This document shows, one piece after another, positions 15,230 to 26,381 of a DNA stretch of 64,000 nt (positions are counted from its first letter, which is position 1; each line of letters begins with the position of its first letter). The DNA lies in assembly GCA_019096065.1 (NCBI GenBank), contig JAGUCH010000004.1:6386001-6450000 (forward strand), written 5' to 3'. Below the pieces are notes generated by a model, which was given only the letters and a program-made list of their open reading frames with translations, was not told the origin of the DNA and did not search any database. Source of the stretch: Paracyclopina nana (lineage: Eukaryota > Arthropoda > Copepoda > Cyclopoida > Cyclopettidae). Made by a program: the position numbers and the translations under genes.

Positions 15230-15565
15230 GTTGTGACGCATCTTTTTCGTCGTTTTCCCTTTTCGGCCAATGCTGCCATTTTGGCGTGCTTTAGCTGAGT
15301 CTGAAGTGAAGAAAGGACAGCAGCAGCAGATGCAGCAGCAGCAGCAGCTTATGCGTGCGTTTATGAATCTTAACTTGGACGCGAATTGTGAGGAAACGCC
15401 AGCCTCAGCCTCCAATTGATATTAACAGAAGAGCTCCTCAATCTGCCCCGTCTTGGCTGCCATCTAAACATTGTGCAATATCTTGAGTGCCACGATGAGT
15501 AACGCAGTTCACGGCCATTGGCTAACCACGCTTAGAGCACTTGATTCCAGAGGATTTGTGGCAAG

Positions 15566-18500
15566 ATGAACTTCAGCCGGGTTTCCAGCGTTGCCCCCAG
15601 TGATCCGAAGCTGTACAGCGGAGCCCCCAACGCCCCACGTGGCACTCCTCTGCTTCCCCAGCCCGATCCCAATCACAACAGCCTGTTCGAGCTGCTCGAG
15701 CAGCCCCCACAAGCAGCAGCCTTCGAGCTACAGTCATCGGATGCACTCAGCCTTTTCGACGACCTCGACCTCGACAAGGCCAGGGACCACTTTGGCGCCT
15801 CGTCGACCAGTTTCCTTGTCGATGACCTCGCCGATCTGATCGAGGAGAAATCCACCACACCTATGTTGGTAGTGAGCGCCTCGAATTTCAACATGATGGC
15901 CACCTCCCCGCCAGCCGCCGTCCTCGTGGTCAACGAGACGGAGAGGAGGCGGAATGAGGCGACGACCCTGCTCAAATCTCTTTCAGTCCCCGATCCACTG
16001 CTTGGGCAGCTCGTCTCGGAGTCGCTCACCGGGTTCATTTTCGTCGTGGATGCCCAGGGACGAGTGGAGTTTGTGAGCAACTCGTCGGCTGAGCAAGTGG
16101 GACACTCACCAGATCACATTCGAGGAAACCAAATCTACAACTTTTTGCACCCTGCCGACCACTCCCGGTTCGGGTGCCACCTCGTGCAGCAGCAATCTCC
16201 ACCTACCTCCAACACGGACCCTGACAAGGCCAGGAGGAATTTCACTTGTCGATTCAAACTGCTGAATAGCAACGAGTCCTACATCACCCTCTATGTGGCA
16301 TGCATCACCGTTCGGCGCAATCAGGACAGCGTGGAGACCTCCAGGCTTCTCTGTGTTGCCAGAAAGCTCAGTGACGTGAGCCCGCTCACGATGGTAACTA
16401 CGACCAGCACCAACCCTGTGGTTCAGAATGCTACCGATTTGTTCACCACCAAGCTCGATCCTGCCACATTCAAGGTGATGCTGGCCGACACATCACCTGC
16501 AGCTACCTCGAACAGCCGCCTGAGAGCCTCGGTGGCCGCTAAGACTGTCTCCATGGTGGGCAAGTGCTTTCTGGACTTTTGCCACCCCGATGACCGCGAC
16601 CTCGTGCGCAACCACTTTTTGAGTACAGTGCGGGACAAACAGAGTGTCAGCTCGGTATACAGAATGACTGGCCTGATAGGCAACAACAACGGCAGCATAC
16701 ATCAAAGGCTGACAAATGTGGTACATGTGCAGACCAAGTCAAAGTATCACAAAGCGATCAATAACGGATCCAACTCAGGGTTCATCGTTTCCATTCATTC
16801 AATCGTGGGCGATGTCCCGACCCTTCACACAAACGCTACCAATCGATTGCCGACTACTGCCGTGTCGTCGCAAATTGCGACCTCGACAACGTCTTACCTT
16901 CTGACGGGAACGAGTGATAGCAGTCGAGCGCCAGTTGTGATGATGTCATCAGCAGCCAAAGTGTCAACATTGTCATCGCTGCTAACATCGACATCATCAG
17001 CAGCCATAGCTCCACATGATAAGACACCCCCGTCGTCATCACCCTCGCCGACTTCAGAGAACAGTGACGAGGCTAAGAACCAGCTGTTGAAGCAGTTGCT
17101 GAATCCTAATTATCAGCCTCAGCCGTCGTCCTCGGAGTCATCCTCCGACTACTCCAATCCCCGCATTTTGAAGCTGCTCAGCGGAGGCAACATGACTCGA
17201 ACTGGCGTGAAAAGGTCGGCCAATTCGCCGCTCGATAATCCGCCAGCTCAAAAGACAGTGAGTGTAGTCTGCTCCGAGAATCCTAGCCTCACAGAGCTTC
17301 TGGAGAAGCCTCCTCACTTGTCCATCACTGTGCCTCCACCTGTGCCCACGAAGTGGCATCAAGAGCCACGCGAGAAACTGCCCAAGGATATCATGAGGAA
17401 ATTTCTGCCTCCTCACCCAGCTGAGCGAGCTGCGGCCGCTGCTGCTGCAGCCGCAGCCTCAGCCTCGAAGCCAGCTACGTTGGCAGTATCTGCCCCATCG
17501 ACATCCAACTCGGCGTTGTACTCAGTCCTCACCAACCGGAATCCAGTGTCAAATCAGAGGTCGGGCAATGGTGGTCCCTACCATCCTGTCTACAGCTCAA
17601 ACAGTGGAAATTCTCAAACTGTGACGTCGGCCTCAACGTCTAGCAACCTGCCTCTCTTTGAGGCCTCCGGCTCCCTGGAGGGCTCATCATTTTCTGAGGA
17701 CAAAGACGAGATGCTTTCCGAAATTTTGGACGGGCTCATCGAGTTTCAAGAGAAGAGCCCCGTTTCTATTGCCTCATCAGCATCTTCGTCCTCCATAAGT
17801 GCAGCCTCCAGAGCCGACGAGCGAAGAATCTCGGATATTGAACGATTTTTGGTCAGCTCTGAGCGCAGCTTAATGCAGCAGCAGCTGCAACAGCCCAAGC
17901 CAAAAATAATGTCCTCGCTGGCAGCCTCGGCCCCGTCACTTACGTCAATCCTGTCGGCCCCGCCATTGGCCACGCCCACAGGCCGGCCTCCACCCCCGTC
18001 TCAGTCAAACGGCTCCTCGCGGTCAGCCAACCCAGTCAATCTCGTGCCAAGGATGAACGAGCTACTGCAACAGGTTCCTCCCAACGTCTCCATTCCGGAC
18101 ACGCCGGACCTGGACTCGTTGATGCTCCTTCAGGAGAGAAGAAGAAGAATGTCGAGCGGTGGCACTGTTCAGACCGTATCCTCGGCCTCAGCCGTGAATC
18201 AACAGCAGCCACAGTCCCGCGCAAATGCCCAACTTGGAGGCTTGGCCTTTCAATTGCAGCCAACTATGACCTCCCCTCAGCAAAGTCAAATGGGCCGAGG
18301 GCAGCTACTAATGCAGCACTTGACTTCTAATAGTGGCTCGACGCGATCGACGGTTCAAGCTCCACGGCAAGTTCCGTATAATTTGGAGCCAGCAGCAGTT
18401 TCCGGTGGGGGAGGCCCAATTTATGCCAACTACGGCAATCATAGCCTCCAGTTGCAGCAACAGCAGCAGCAGCCTCCCCAAGTCCGACGGTCGTCGTTTT

Positions 18501-18787
18501 CTGGTGCCAATTCTAACTCGAGTCCTTTGATATCTCCACCCTCAGGAGCTGTTGCGGCTGCAGCTGCGGCCGTTGCAGCAGCCTCGGCTGCCAATCAGCA
18601 GCAGCTTCCGTCTGGTCAACAGCAAGGTCGAGCTCAACGACATTCGAGTGGGGGAACGGTGCATCACGGAGGACCAGTGCGAGGCCAAAATCAGTTGTTA
18701 GCTCGCAGACTCTCCGATTCAGTTGAGAGCACCAACAACAGTGACGAGAAACAAAGATCCCTTTTACAGCAGTTGCTGTCCGAGTGA
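15566..18787 (+). CDS. p160 nuclear receptor coactivator (NCOA/Taiman-like), intronless
   Basis: One uninterrupted 1073-aa ORF. p160 coactivators bridge ligand-bound nuclear receptors (ecdysone receptor in arthropods) to histone acetyltransferases. Residues ~135-220 match the PAS region (DPLLGQLVSESLTGFIFVVDAQGRVEFVS, then GNQIYNFLHPADHSRF); FTCRFKL and VHVQTKSK..SGFIVSIHSI continue the PAS/PAC-like part to ~420. Downstream are receptor-interaction LxxLL boxes: LFELL (near residue 35), LSSLL, LKQLL, LTELL, and LQQLL at the extreme C-terminus. Gln- and Ala-rich tracts follow. Expected size of the family is ~1,400 aa or more. The N-terminal bHLH normally preceding PAS is not in this ORF. A weak acceptor (ttgattccag, ending 15550) with open frame leaves room for an upstream exon, but none with a bHLH was found back to 12.7 kb. 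Compared with relatives, the long single exon is unusual. Confidence 0.88.
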   Translation: MNFSRVSSVAPSDPKLYSGAPNAPRGTPLLPQPDPNHNSLFELLEQPPQAAAFELQSSDALSLFDDLDLDKARDHFGASSTSFLVDDLADLIEEKSTTPMLVVSASNFNMMATSPPAAVLVVNETERRRNEATTLLKSLSVPDPLLGQLVSESLTGFIFVVDAQGRVEFVSNSSAEQVGHSPDHIRGNQIYNFLHPADHSRFGCHLVQQQSPPTSNTDPDKARRNFTCRFKLLNSNESYITLYVACITVRRNQDSVETSRLLCVARKLSDVSPLTMVTTTSTNPVVQNATDLFTTKLDPATFKVMLADTSPAATSNSRLRASVAAKTVSMVGKCFLDFCHPDDRDLVRNHFLSTVRDKQSVSSVYRMTGLIGNNNGSIHQRLTNVVHVQTKSKYHKAINNGSNSGFIVSIHSIVGDVPTLHTNATNRLPTTAVSSQIATSTTSYLLTGTSDSSRAPVVMMSSAAKVSTLSSLLTSTSSAAIAPHDKTPPSSSPSPTSENSDEAKNQLLKQLLNPNYQPQPSSSESSSDYSNPRILKLLSGGNMTRTGVKRSANSPLDNPPAQKTVSVVCSENPSLTELLEKPPHLSITVPPPVPTKWHQEPREKLPKDIMRKFLPPHPAERAAAAAAAAAASASKPATLAVSAPSTSNSALYSVLTNRNPVSNQRSGNGGPYHPVYSSNSGNSQTVTSASTSSNLPLFEASGSLEGSSFSEDKDEMLSEILDGLIEFQEKSPVSIASSASSSSISAASRADERRISDIERFLVSSERSLMQQQLQQPKPKIMSSLAASAPSLTSILSAPPLATPTGRPPPPSQSNGSSRSANPVNLVPRMNELLQQVPPNVSIPDTPDLDSLMLLQERRRRMSSGGTVQTVSSASAVNQQQPQSRANAQLGGLAFQLQPTMTSPQQSQMGRGQLLMQHLTSNSGSTRSTVQAPRQVPYNLEPAAVSGGGGPIYANYGNHSLQLQQQQQQPPQVRRSSFSGANSNSSPLISPPSGAVAAAAAAVAAASAANQQQLPSGQQQGRAQRHSSGGTVHHGGPVRGQNQLLARRLSDSVESTNNSDEKQRSLLQQLLSE

Positions 18788-19177
18788 ATGAGGCTACAAA
18801 ATTGGGACAAAAACACACACATCCACACTGCCGCATCTTTTCATGCTCAATGAAAACGGTTTCTAATTCGAGCTGTGGCTGTCACCAATCCTTTTTATCC
18901 ACAACTACTACTACTACAACGCAGATCCTTTTACTGGTGTTGCTCTATTTTTTTACGCCCATCTGAAGTGTAAGCATGGGCGACGAATGTTGATGATGGT
19001 GAACCACACGCTTCTGAATCCAAAATTTCTGCCACAATCTACTACTTCTATCTATGACCGAATGCATTCCCCGAGTACTGCGAAAAATCACTATATTAAA
19101 TATACTATGTATGGAGTAAATTAGTTTTTTCACACTAAAGACTCTCGTCTTATTCTTCTTTTAAGCTTGCACTCCAA
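18788..19177. other. 3' UTR / intergenic
   Basis: Gap between the coactivator stop and the first DUSP alternative exon. It includes a short ACTACTACTAC run near 18903. No gene seen. Confidence 0.4.
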
Positions 19178-19356
19178 ATGTCTGACGTGGAAGAGTTGAA
19201 CGGAGTCCTCGCTACCGTCAGTCCGTCTGACCTCAACCTTGATACGAGGCCGCTTCCAGGCATTGATAAACAGGTTGACACCGAGTTTTTGTCCCGCTAC
19301 GAGACCGGTGTTGATTGCGACGCTGTATTCGGAGGCCGAATTCTGATAGGAAATTT
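19178..19356 (+). CDS. DUSP3-like phosphatase, alternative first exon 1
   Basis: ATG 19178 opens 59 codons ending in DAVFGGRILIGN, then a consensus donor (TT|gtaagc) in phase 2. The end of the exon corresponds to the substrate-domain start seen in the other two DUSP first exons (VFPGVHLGD and IFPNLFIGD). Joined to the shared exon at 20957 it reads ...ILIGN-L-GAAKNTFYLKKIG without break, giving a 206-aa protein. The N-terminal sequence is unrelated to the other two. That it is used as a first exon is inference from phase and homology. Confidence 0.6.
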
Positions 19357-20329
19357 GTAAGCACAACACCGTGTTTTCCTTTGCAAATATGTCGAGGTCG
19401 AATCGTGAGCTGTGACCGCGCGGATACTGTGAATTGCAAAAAAGACGGCAGTCTCTCGCCAATTTTCTTAAAATGAATAATGATAGGCCGAAAACAACTC
19501 CCAAGATCCAACGTAAGAATGTGAACGATTTGGCCTAGTTCCGATTTCTTGGTAAGCAGGTCCGTCATCACGGATGAATAGAGAAAGTTGTTTTACATAA
19601 CGCGAAAAAAGCACTCTTGGATACTGCTTGACTTTTGAAAACTGAACTGATATAGCACATTTATCTGGGCTGAAAAATGAAACGCTTACAACTAGGAGAA
19701 AATCCCATCTTTTCCTCGTATAATGATTGTAATTACAGTTGCCTTGGCCTCAGTCATGGACATGCACTCAAGAAGCTATACATGGGCGGGGATTCGTCCT
19801 CGGCCGCTATATAGTCTCACTATAATAAAAAACCGAACACAATAGCTTCTAGAGCTGCCTCGATACACAAAGTCAGCCTTCGAAATGAGGTTGAGGCCAT
19901 CTGTGCACTTAATTCCCCACAGAGAACTGTCTCACATTTCTCCCAATTAGCCGGGCTATGGCCATTCCTATAGCATTATTGCTACGTGCTGATGAGAAAA
20001 AGGTGTGGACTATCCTGATGATCCGCAGAAAGCCATATGATTGCCTAGCCGGCAAGGCCTCTCGGCCTTCATGATGAAGAAGGCCTTTCCTCCCATTCTT
20101 CAGCTGATTGTTACATTATACACAGTGCAAAACAGAGATCCACGTATAACATCCATTTTTCACTGGTCTGAAAAACGAATTACTTAACTATACACTAGAT
20201 AGCAATTCTGGGAAATGTGAAAGCAGTTCGCGCGTGCGCGCGTTCTCACGAACTTGTACTTTGACTCCCCCATCTTTGTCACTTCTGGGGAAGGCTGAAC
20301 AGTTGCCCGAGCCTAGCTGGCCAAGAAGC

Positions 20330-20598
20330 ATGTGTAATATGTGTCCTCGGACTCCATCATCATCTTCCTCTAGTGAAAATAGCAATACTGCAATGCCTAC
20401 CAAATGCTCTTGCCAGCCAGCAACCGAGGCTCGAAAGTACCTCAACATTTACAACTGCTATAACGACCATGAAGAGACCACGGCCTACCAGCTCTCCCAA
20501 GTGGCTGTTGACTGGTCCATGAAACTGAATCGCAACCTTGCAGCCAATTGCAGAAATATTTCCGATGAAGTCTTTCCGGGCGTTCACCTCGGCGATAG
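20330..20598 (+). CDS. DUSP3-like phosphatase, alternative first exon 2
   Basis: ATG 20330 (a second in-frame ATG lies three codons later) leads to a Ser- and Cys-containing N-terminus and ends in ISDEVFPGVHLGD, the classic DUSP domain opening, followed by a donor (AG|gtgaaa) in phase 2. Spliced to 20957 it gives LGD-R-GAAKNTFYLKKIG, a 236-aa protein. The downstream frame otherwise terminates just after the donor. Confidence 0.7.
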
Positions 20599-20670
20599 GT
20601 GAAAAGAACGGGACCTTTGCAAGGCTGGACACGAGCGAAGGCCAATTTTAACTTATTACTATAACTAACC

Positions 20671-21497
20671 ATGTCGAGCTACCATACGAGAAGGGGCTCG
20701 CCTACTTTATGGTCGACGTATCACGAGCTCAAAGCTGTGCTCGATGCTCCTCTCATAGAGAAACGAGTGGTTGCAGTGAAATACGACGATTCCAAGAGAA
20801 TCGTCAACATGACCGAGATTTTCCCAAACCTATTCATCGGCGATGAGTTAATACCCTTTTTACTTACTTACAACTACTTTATAACACTATTTAAGTTGCG
20901 CCTTTTACATAAGCGCAGTAACTGTGACTCATATTGTTCTAACGTTGCTTTTTCAGGGGCGCGGCCAAAAATACCTTCTACCTTAAGAAGATTGGAGTGA
21001 CCCATGTGTTGAACACAGCCGAGGGTACCAGGGTTGGTCTTGTGGACACTAACCAAAAGTACTACAAGCCCTTTGGCATCCACTACAAAGGCCTCAAACT
21101 TTTGGACGTCGCCCAGACCAACATTGCTATGTACTTCACCGAAGTTGCAGAGTATATTGACGAAGCCCTCAAATCTGGAGGTATTTTTGCCTTTTTGCCA
21201 AGATTCGGATCTCTCTGACGTCAATCCGGATAAGAATTCGCGTAGCATCATAAAAAACACTTTCGACTTTCTTTTCCAGGAAAGGTCTTGGTAAATTGTC
21301 TCATGGGCATGTCCCGGTCAAGCACTTGTGTGCTGGCCTACCTAATGCTCCGACAAAACATGACAGCCGTGGAGGCTTTGACAGAGGTGCGCAGGTACCG
21401 AGAAGTCAGGCCCAACGATGGATTTCTCCGACAGCTCGCTGATCTCGATAACAAATTGCGCCGCGAGCGCGGGCAGTTGAAAACGCCGCTGCAATAG
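20671..21497 (+). CDS. DUSP3/VHR-like dual-specificity phosphatase (first exon 3 plus common body)
   Basis: Exons 20671-20846, 20957-21180 and 21280-21497; 205 aa, similar to DUSP3 (185 aa). Dual-specificity phosphatases remove phosphate from Tyr and Ser/Thr, typically of MAP kinases. Visible: domain start TEIFPNLFIGDEGAAKN; ITHVLN-like GVTHVLNTAEGTR; a general-acid loop (GLKLLDVAQTNI, Asp in place); and the P-loop VNCLMGMSRSSTCVLAYL, with Cys, Arg and the Ser after it. The residue before the catalytic Cys is Asn (codon 21294-21296) where the signature has His. RPNDGF and the C-terminal helix follow. Exons 2 and 3 are shared with two other first exons upstream. The only poly(A) hexamer found (AATAAA, 21761-21766) lies next to the stop of the convergent zinc-finger gene. 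Confidence 0.88.
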
Positions 21498-23317: not shown

Positions 23318-24161
23318 ATTTGCGATTTTTGCGTTGAAGTATCATCGTGTCATTTGACAACTTTTTGTTTACAATTTGCATCAGTAATGCTAGTGTAATA
23401 AAGTTGGCGGCAAATTCAAAAAATGTATAGAAAATGCAGTTCCCCATGAACTATATCACCATTTTTTGTAATCCTACATAGCTCTATAAATAATATTCCG
23501 AGGCTGATATTTGCACTCTAACTGCTGAAAAAGAAAAAAAGTGATCTATATAATCTAACGTTTAATTAAGTTGGGTCCCTTCCAATAAAAAATGGAACTG
23601 TCAGCAGAAATGTTGCAAACTTGACATTTTGTCATCATCAGGTCTGCAAGGCAGAGCCAAAAAGAAAAAAAGCTAGAATTTGCATTGATCCATTCATAAA
23701 AGATACATTTTTACCAATTCATCTTTAACTGTCAAGCCTTTATGAAAAGGCTTCATAAGCAAACGATAATTTTAACGGGTCTGGGTTCATCAATGCGATC
23801 ATTACAAGCTGAGCGTTTGCCTAGAATGGTGACCAGACGTGGAAAGCAAAATTGGCGTCTATGTAGTATATAATCACAGTGGCTTCTGACTGTTACTGTC
23901 TGGCCACCTGCACTGTACAATGCTGTCAAAGTTTACGTATGCAACCAAAGCAAAGGCATGTAAAGTGAAAGCTCAGGTATAGGTTGAATCATAATTGTAA
24001 TACTCAGTCCCATCAAAACCCTCGGCAATCATTCTTTCAGGATCCGGTGAGCGTTTTTGCACTTTCTGTAGCTGGAGCACATCATTGCATGCACACTTTA
24101 ATTGAGCATAGTCCACACACTGATCACACAACAACAACAAGCCAGTTTAGAGTAGCAAGTC
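23318..24161. other. Divergent intergenic region (zinc-finger / ethanolamine kinase)
   Basis: About 840 bp between two start codons pointing away from each other. It should hold both promoters. It is A/T rich with no recognisable repeat or RNA gene. Confidence 0.5.
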
Positions 24162-25208
24162 ATGGAGGATGTCAAGCTGTTGCCAGACATTGTCATCAAT
24201 TTTGACACTGAGGAACAACTCAAAAATGGTGCAGCTCAAGTCATAGCACAGGTCAAGCCAGAGTGGCCAAAAAACGAGCATCGTTTCAAGATATTCACTG
24301 ATGGCATAAGCAACAAGCTGATAGGCGTGTACGTAGGCGACAAGAAAAAGGACATGGTCCTTGTCAGAGTTTATGGAGCTCAAACCGAGCTCTTCATCGA
24401 TAGAGAATCCGAAGTTCGAAATATGATGGTTCTAGCGCAATCCGGATGCGGTTGTCAGCTATATGCCCGATTCGGAAATGGGCTCGCATACGAGTTTATT
24501 CCTGGTGAAACCCTGACAATTGAATCAGCCAAGGCAAAAGATGTCTATCCCCGCGTAGCTGCAGCCATGGCTAAGATGCACAAAGAGGTGGATTTGGGCC
24601 CTAATGTCGTAAAGGAGGCTTGCATGTGGAAGAAGCTCCACATGTTTTTGGGCTACGCGGATCCAGAAGCCATAAATGATAAGAGACTGGGAGAAAATAA
24701 CATCACTAAAGAGAGGCTGGAACAAGAAGTGGCATTGTTGGAAGGCCAGCTGAAAGGATGCTCCAGCAAAATTGTGTTCACTCACAACGACCTCCTTCTG
24801 GCTAATATCGTGGTCCAGGAGTCAGGCAAGGTGTCGTTCATTGACTACGAGTATGGAGATTATAACTATCACGAATGCGACGTGGCCAATCACTTTGATG
24901 AGATGGCCGGAGTTGAGAGCATGGATTTCCTCAAGCATTATCCGACACGAGAATTTCAGCTGGATTGGATTCGCTGTTATTTGGAGGCTTTTCACTCGCA
25001 AAGTTCGTCGCCGTCAGAGGACGAAGTGATGGAGTTTTTTGTCAACGTCAACAAGTTCAGCCTCTGCTTTCATATGATGTGGGGTCTGTGGGGATTGGTG
25101 CAAGCCAAGATTTCAAAAATTGACTTTGACTTTGTGGCTTTTGCCTTGTCTCGCCTTAACGAATACTTTCGGGTGCGTGACGAGAGATTGGCCATGAAAC
25201 TCCCTTGA
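24162..25208 (+). CDS. Ethanolamine kinase (easily shocked / ETNK family)
   Basis: Intronless ORF of 348 aa, the usual size for ETNK1/2. It phosphorylates ethanolamine with ATP, the first step of the CDP-ethanolamine pathway to phosphatidylethanolamine, in the cytosol. Protein-kinase-like fold motifs: FKIFTDGISNKLIGVY (glycine loop region), VLVRVYGAQTELFIDRESE, YEFIPGETL, Brenner motif FTHNDLLLANIVV (catalytic Asp and Asn), then VSFIDYEYGDYNYHECDVANHF (metal Asp and the choline/ethanolamine-kinase motif). LCFHMMWGLWGLVQAKISKIDFDF near the C-terminus is characteristic of ethanolamine rather than choline kinases. All key residues are intact, so the lack of introns does not indicate a dead retrocopy. 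It provides CDP-ethanolamine precursors whose product PE donates the group used by PIGG. Confidence 0.95.
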   Translation: MEDVKLLPDIVINFDTEEQLKNGAAQVIAQVKPEWPKNEHRFKIFTDGISNKLIGVYVGDKKKDMVLVRVYGAQTELFIDRESEVRNMMVLAQSGCGCQLYARFGNGLAYEFIPGETLTIESAKAKDVYPRVAAAMAKMHKEVDLGPNVVKEACMWKKLHMFLGYADPEAINDKRLGENNITKERLEQEVALLEGQLKGCSSKIVFTHNDLLLANIVVQESGKVSFIDYEYGDYNYHECDVANHFDEMAGVESMDFLKHYPTREFQLDWIRCYLEAFHSQSSSPSEDEVMEFFVNVNKFSLCFHMMWGLWGLVQAKISKIDFDFVAFALSRLNEYFRVRDERLAMKLP

Positions 25209-25433: not shown

Positions 25434-26381
25434 ATGTCAGATTCGGAGGAGGAGGTCGCGGAAAAGCAATTCAAGATTTGTTTGATAGGTGATAGCCAAG
25501 TTGGCAAAACGTCGATTGCCAACAGATATGCGACCGACAACTTTGGCAAGTTGCCTGCCACCGTGGGAGTGGAGTTTTATCTCAAGAGGACAATTCTACC
25601 CGGACCTCGACACATCGCCCTCAAAGTAATTTTTCCAGCGAATATGAATGCACCATCCTATTGTTGTTGCTATGAAGGTTTGGGACGTCGGAGGAAGTGC
25701 GATGCAGAGTCGCATGCTCGACAAATACGTGTTTGGTGCCAATGCCATAATGCTCGTATATGACGTTACGAACAGCGCTTCATTCGAGAATCTGGAGCAA
25801 TGGCTACGAACGAGCCAACGCGTGACAAGCTCCATGGATAAGCCACCCATGTATGCATTAGTGGCCAATAAAATTGACCAGGAGCATCTTCGTACCGTCA
25901 AGTCAGACCGACATCACAAATTCGCCCAGGTTCGTGTGTACTTTCCGAGTTTGGGGAGGCTTTTCATGTCTTTTTTTAGAGCCACTTACCTCTAACATAA
26001 TTGCAGCAGTAGAATTCGACTTGAAAAGCCTTTTTGAAGGAGACAAAGTTAGTATTTAGTGCAACATTCGCCCTTTCAGGAAAACAGCCTTTTAACGTAT
26101 GCAGTTTCGGCGAAAACGAGCGAGGGCGTGAACCTTTGCTTTCAAAAGGTCGCAGCCGAGTTGGTCGGAATTAGGTAAGTCATTGCTAATTGACTCTAAT
26201 ATGGTAGGACAGCAGCAGCTTTAACCTATATAACCAATTTCTAATTGACAGACTCTCGAAAGCAGAACAGGAGCAACAGCAGGCGGTGGTGAAAGCAGAA
26301 ATTGTCACTTATCCTCAGCACAGGATGGCTAACAATGTGCAGCCATCATCTGTCAAAACAGCCGTTTGTTCCATCCAGTAG
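25434..26381 (+). CDS. RAB28: RAB28 small GTPase
   Basis: Exons 25434-25625, 25678-25929, 26080-26174 and 26252-26381; 222 aa (human 221). RAB28 is a farnesylated Rab-like GTPase linked to cilia and intraflagellar transport. Nearly every landmark is there: N-terminal MSDSEEE; P-loop GDSQVGKT; TVGVEFYLKR switch I; WDVGG switch II; MLDKYVFGANAIMLVYDVTN; NKID and VSAKTSEGV (guanine specificity); CFQKVAAELVGIRLSKAEQEQ; C-terminal CaaX box CSIQ. Human RAB28 ends similarly in CAVQ. The residue after WDxGG is Ser (codon 25696-25698) where Gln is usual. Donor of exon 2 is gttcgt, weak but required by homology. The only intron-1 acceptor that fits (tatgaag) lacks a good pyrimidine tract. Confidence 0.95.

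Follow-up and report, generated by a model that had tools for sequence, protein, structure and literature searches.

A DUSP3-related phosphatase gene of Paracyclopina nana with three candidate alternative 5' coding exons and a common acceptor

The window analyzed here, a 64,000-nucleotide stretch of the Paracyclopina nana genome, carries on its forward strand a phosphatase-like gene in which three tandem 5' coding exons, designated A, B and C, share one phase and, as read from the sequence, one common acceptor. Upstream of it, a very long open frame (15545-18787, 1080 codons) encodes a PAS-domain protein with a Ser/Gln-rich tail and ends about 390 bases before the exon A ATG; downstream, a single 350-codon open frame (24156-25208) contains a choline/ethanolamine kinase domain (profile positions 2-300 of 300). 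Searches of the window with Rfam, at gathering scores, and with ARAGORN returned no match. The features of the locus are as follows.

19092..19104, forward strand: TATATTAAATATA, which may serve exon A as a TATA box or, by its ATTAAA, provide the poly(A) signal for the PAS-domain gene upstream
19166..19177, forward strand: the 12 bases from the acceptor-like site TTCTTCTTTTAAG, scored with a generic matrix, to the exon A ATG
19178..19356, forward strand: exon A, with a paralog-type N-terminus RPLPGI...GVDCDAVFGGRILIGN and the phase-2 donor TTT/GTAAGC
20104..20329, forward strand: stretch following the acceptor-like CCCATTCTTCAG, possibly 5' UTR belonging to exon B
20330..20598, forward strand: exon B, an N-terminus with the end SDEVFPGVHLGD and the phase-2 donor TAG/GTGAAA
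20671..20846, forward strand: exon C, an N-terminus with the end MTEIFPNLFIGD and the weak phase-2 donor TGA/GTTAAT
20957..21180, forward strand: common exon 2 (GAAKNTFYLKK...), with the shared acceptor TTTTTCAG
21280..21497, forward strand: common exon 3, containing the signature VNCLMGMSRS and the stop codon

Rereading of the sequence and its open frames reproduced the coordinates, ATG starts, phase 2 and GT donors that the sequence-only reading had given for A, B and C, as well as the terminal peptides that it quoted (FGGRILIGN, FPGVHLGD and FPNLFIGD). All three exons also fit the acceptor at 20957, as it had proposed, joining in frame and without a stop to 20957-21180 and 21280-21497. The resulting proteins, uninterrupted through exons 2 and 3, measure 206 (A), 236 (B) and 205 (C) residues and end at a stop codon placed at 21495-21497 from the lengths. 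In-frame stops lie upstream of the ATGs at 19136 (A), 20147 (B) and 20662 (C), and only 72 bases separate the end of exon B from the start of exon C.

All three forms contain the Pfam DSPc domain (92.1-93.9 bits against a cut-off of 33.5), and the best solved relative of each is human DUSP3, followed by DUSP13, DUPD1 and DUSP26. With exons 2 and 3 as the query, the 12 top-scoring solved sequences are those of DUSP3, 13, DUPD1 and 26 (92.3-126.9 bits) and the next scores 65.6 bits. Within the 205-236 residues, Pfam at E ≤0.001 identified only phosphatase families, and no MAPK-binding (rhodanese-like) domain. The proposed DUSP3-like identity is borne out by these matches, although the CX5R element has Asn for His: VNCLMGMSRS keeps the Cys and Arg of the HCX5R signature but carries Asn in place of its His, and we therefore describe the gene as a homologue of the DUSP3/13/26/29 clade, not as a proven HCX5R enzyme. 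Counted by eye, the core D-X26-VLV-NC-LMGM-SRS-X5-AYLM follows the extended signature motif quoted for mosquito phosphatases (PMC6264519), except for Asn in place of His and Met in place of Val/Ile. A literature search found no paper on NCX5R phosphatases. In the Yersinia PTP, the His-to-Asn change raises the pKa of the Cys and does not abolish activity, so that, by analogy, the product of the window gene would be likelier a weak enzyme than a dead one.

The variable exons would supply the region up to and including beta1, the first strand of the catalytic domain, and we assessed their shared ends against a junction control. The control set consisted of all phase-2 GT junctions on either strand of the window, 1078 in number, that closed an open frame of 30 codons or more with an ATG lying over 11 codons from the junction. 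Each was fused to exon 20957, and the product was scored against the N-termini of solved DUSP chains, six fragments in all. Ranked by best score, exons B, C and A come 1, 2 and 4 of 1078, the third place going to a minus-strand site at 25612; by mean score, C, B and A come 1, 2 and 5. The common terminal element noted earlier is thus present beyond chance, and in both B and C, which end in a genuine family beta1 element, the GT lies two bases past the GD codons. A loose beta1 pattern, written after the element had been seen, was run over 549,504 strand-bases, taken from both strands of the window and of 20 samples of its own genome and from the sense strand of four paralog loci; its 6 matches are the four paralog domains, B and C, with none elsewhere. 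Exon A escapes this pattern because its strand carries one extra residue.

Addition of a variable exon to exons 2 and 3 likewise raised the phmmer scores against solved relatives. Against DUSP3 (3f81), the score rises from 126.9 bits to 135.5 with A, 136.1 with B and 137.3 with C (gains of 8.6, 9.2 and 10.4 bits), and against DUSP26 (2e0t) from 99.3 bits to 102.7, 118.8 and 114.8, respectively (gains of 3.4, 19.5 and 15.5 bits); for DUPD1 the gains are 3.4 (A), 12.7 (B) and 21.2 bits (C). The Pfam DSPc score is almost flat, at 92.7 bits without a variable exon and 92.1, 92.6 and 93.9 with A, B and C.

The shared ends had also been taken to imply exon duplication within the gene, a claim that the comparison of the exons with one another does not establish. 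Pairwise likeness was equalled by 400 of 1000 shuffles for A-B and 571 of 1000 for A-C, and only B-C stood above chance (4 of 1000); with beta1 removed, no pair rose above shuffles, and blastn among the three exons detected nothing longer than words of 7-11 bases, none with an E value better than 0.8. With A-B and A-C similarity at chance level, duplication within the gene is an inference, and the three beta1 elements likely owe their likeness to common descent through the family. A collapse of tandem genes was also considered and given low weight: a tblastn search for relics of exons 2 and 3 over 18781-20950 found nothing better than E 0.18.

The origin of the three N-termini was examined by searching the same genome (92 Mb, 10 contigs). 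Each of A, B and C matched only its own place (E ≤10, best candidates scored), revealing no second copy of any of them, and the core has five related domains on four other contigs, C1, C2 (two), C3 and C8, with identities of 44% (C1), 53% (C2), 53% (C8) and, in two pieces, 57% and 50% (C3). The N-termini on C1, C8 and C3 present a motif like RPxPGF...G(I/V)DC(D)(E/K)VYPG, and exon A carries this paralog N-terminus (RPxPGF...GVDCDEV). With beta1 removed on both sides, A still matches C1, C8 and C3 (z 9.9, 7.3 and 7.7; 0 of 1000 shuffles as high in each case), the corresponding counts being 2 of 1000 for C2a and 59 of 1000 for C2b. With beta1 included, A matches all five paralog domains (≤1 of 1000 shuffles) and resembles no human N-terminus of the five compared beyond chance (275 of 1000 at the lowest). 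The assertion that the N-termini differ completely consequently holds among A, B and C but not for A against its paralogs, whose N-terminus it shares. Deprived of beta1, exons B and C match none of the 10 relatives tried (lowest 198 of 1000); with it, B matches 9 of the 10 (≤7 of 1000; DUSP3, 184 of 1000) and C matches 7 (≤1 of 1000), with C3, DUSP3 and C8 at 11, 12 and 46 of 1000. As far as these comparisons go, exon A seems to preserve the old type of N-terminus, joined to a beta1 altered by one extra residue, and in B and C the standard beta1 is kept and is the sole part that they have in common with their relatives.

The exon structure and signature of the paralogs were read at the same loci. 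Introns near beta1, with sites as read, fall in phase 0 before VYPG on C8 and in phase 1 inside the Gly codon on C3, and the C1 and C2 frames run uninterrupted through the region; with paralog introns differently placed or absent, the intron position of the window gene is not common to C8, C3, C1 and C2. Scanning some 2-3 kb upstream of four paralogs with the beta1 pattern, which is blind to split or A-like forms, turned up no second element. The signature reads NC in four of the five paralog domains (C8, both on C2, and C1) and AC, across an inferred splice, on C3, so that His is missing from the CX5R element both in the window gene (21280-21497) and in its closest paralogs (loci L005, L012, L013 and L024). 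Among the first eight of 34 DSPc matches, other loci carry HC (L001, L003, L006 and L007) or YC (L002), and L008 has no signature motif of the searched form. The C2 paralog frame of 592 residues (L022, G000:C2:14740500-14746500) comprises a full DSPc domain and the beginning of a second, with an LR(L/R)ICW(K/Q)IKPW motif upstream of each. In general and viral contig collections, which hold no animal genomes, 19 and 4 pattern matches were obtained, none of them confirmed.

Coding potential was estimated with several models, the better of which is an order-4 model built from 51 long ORFs of the same genome. On this model exon A (0.383 bits per codon) equals or exceeds 290 of 296 held-out coding blocks, and none of the 272 shadow frames reaches its score; exons B and C, at 0.105 bits per codon each, lie at the coding mean and equal or exceed 137 of 296 coding blocks, and their score is reached by 38 (B) and 37 (C) of the 272 shadow frames. 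Exon 2 scores 0.294 and exon 3 -0.102; since exon 3 is coding by homology, the measure misses true exons. In a smaller model the values were 0.186 (A), 0.044 (B) and 0.108 (C) bits per codon, matched or surpassed by 1, 22 and 6 of 87 shadow frames; another gave totals of +17.1, +1.6 and -9.9 bits, respectively. The path of a crude gene finder, which includes part of A (19194-19324) and part of exon 2 (20988-21180) and omits B, C and exon 3, receives little weight here because elsewhere the program skipped or invented exons. Taken with the comparisons above, exon A is nearly certain to be coding, exon B is likely to be so, and exon C is less likely than B.

Splice signals were scored with a generic metazoan matrix for donors and acceptors alike; three attempts at self-training matrices on the genome itself reached no believable consensus and were not used. 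The donors score 3.67 (A), 6.04 (B), -2.14 (C) and 5.58 (exon 2), values equalled by 771, 196, 4248 and 277 of 6428 GTs, respectively, and the shared acceptor at 20957 scores 8.7. Acceptor-like sites precede exon A at 19166 (9.1; 80 of 8216 AGs as high) and exon B at 20104 (10.9; 27 of 8216), and none precedes exon C, the best of the 4 AGs between B and C scoring -0.1. These strong sites upstream of the A and B ATGs suggest that A and B may be spliced-in second exons, and spliced leaders, an option absent from the sequence-only reading, may therefore come into play for both. A stop is introduced when A is joined to 20104 or 20624 and when B is joined to 20624, so linking two variable exons at those sites would break the protein. 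About 90-100 bases upstream of the exon B ATG, at 20230-20239, lies the word GCGCGTGCGC, which resembles the NRF1 motif.

Together, these results establish the feature as real at the level of sequence, and its best reading is a phosphatase gene with variable 5' exons. We consider it probable that this is one gene of the DUSP3/13/26/29 clade whose three alternative 5' coding exons use the common acceptor at 20957. Each exon would supply a different N-terminal tail together with beta1 and would be spliced in phase 2 to that single acceptor, one variable exon per mRNA. Each would presumably be transcribed, whether under a promoter of its own or, as may be the case for A and B, downstream of a spliced leader. 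Mutual exclusion could follow from the layout itself, because C has no acceptor-like site before it and joins of A or B to the sites ahead of the next variable exons bring stops.

How the exon is chosen is where a possible, though doubtful, alternative differs from this scheme, with which it is otherwise compatible: A and B would both be second exons, preceded by at least one non-coding leader exon and driven by a shared promoter, and splicing would select between them. The acceptor-like sites at 19166 and 20104 favour such leaders, but with 10 AGs upstream of A and 56 upstream of B one site of this strength before each is not unlikely by chance, and both the TATA-like word found before A in a word scan and the lack of an acceptor-like site before C count against them. 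It is rather unlikely that only A and B are working alternatives and that C is decaying or rarely used. Its poor donor (GTTAAT) and its start so close behind B, with no acceptor-like site between them and scant promoter room, point that way; set against this, the C frame is intact, its GT lies where that of B does relative to the GD codons, and its beta1 stands second by best score and first by mean score among the 1078 junctions.

We regard as improbable the more drastic view that the open frames of B and C arose by chance, or that the two exons are what remains of former tandem phosphatase copies after the loss of all their other exons. Their coding bias is not distinctive and A, B and C have no DNA similarity beyond short words, yet neither frame is broken, the two reach a GT in the same phase, the beta1 pattern is confined, over the 549,504 strand-bases scanned, to B, C and the paralogs, and the upstream region yields no exon 2-3 relic better than the E 0.18 match.

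On the preferred reading of one gene with three alternative 5' exons, the likeliest role of the arrangement would be to equip one catalytic core with distinct N-terminal regions according to the time or place of its production. A human DUSP26 construct lacking the N-terminal helix alpha1 has a distorted, inactive active-site loop, this helix acts as a scaffold, and pairing by N-terminal domain swapping is stated for DUSP3 and DUSP29 (PMC7828806). By analogy with alpha1 of DUSP26, exon choice may alter activity or pairing. A bolder version, in which different alpha1-beta1 segments on an NC-type core set its catalytic state, one form being active and the others weak or substrate-trapping, seems to us distinctly unlikely; if true, it would set an ancestral-type A against B and C, each single in the genome, within a DUSP3-related clade lacking the signature histidine. 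Should the exons be transcribed, the three phosphatases made by this compact gene would be distinguished by one strand within the catalytic fold and by the segment that in DUSP26 positions the active-site loop. Such a gene would offer a small test case for phosphatase control through exon choice; it also draws attention to DUSP3 relatives that, as a group, lack the usual active-site histidine.

Several known systems bear comparison with this gene. Human DUSP3 (VHR; PDB 3f81, 1vhr) is likewise a one-domain protein of similar size, and its signature Cys and Arg, together with an aligned Asp that is presumably the general acid, are kept in the window protein. The window gene departs from it in having NCX5R instead of HCX5R, three alternative N-termini, and parts before beta1 that are not similar above chance; the literature search found no paper on an alternative first exon in DUSP3, and none on DUSP3 in tardigrades. 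The papers found on dual specificity phosphatases and alternative first exons concern glucocorticoids. The variable exons of the UGT1 and protocadherin clusters are long and consist of duplicated domains, each with its own promoter, whereas those of the window gene are alike over about 10 residues only. What the two clusters share with the window gene is the joining of tandem 5' exons to common downstream exons (PMC1885805, PMC3325998). Within the clade of the window gene, an alternative intronic promoter of DUSP13 produces a different N-terminal form (PMC11274236); the DUSP13 locus (DUSP13A, DUSP13B and TMDP-L1), however, has two tandem catalytic frames (exons 1-3 and 7-9), where the window gene has one core and three N-terminal exons. 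Variable 5' exons are thus already known from UGT1 and DUSP13, and we judge the window gene to join that kind. In flies, the DUSP13 row of a published table lists Drosophila CG7378 (PMC6264519, Table 1), which is probably the fly relative of the window gene.
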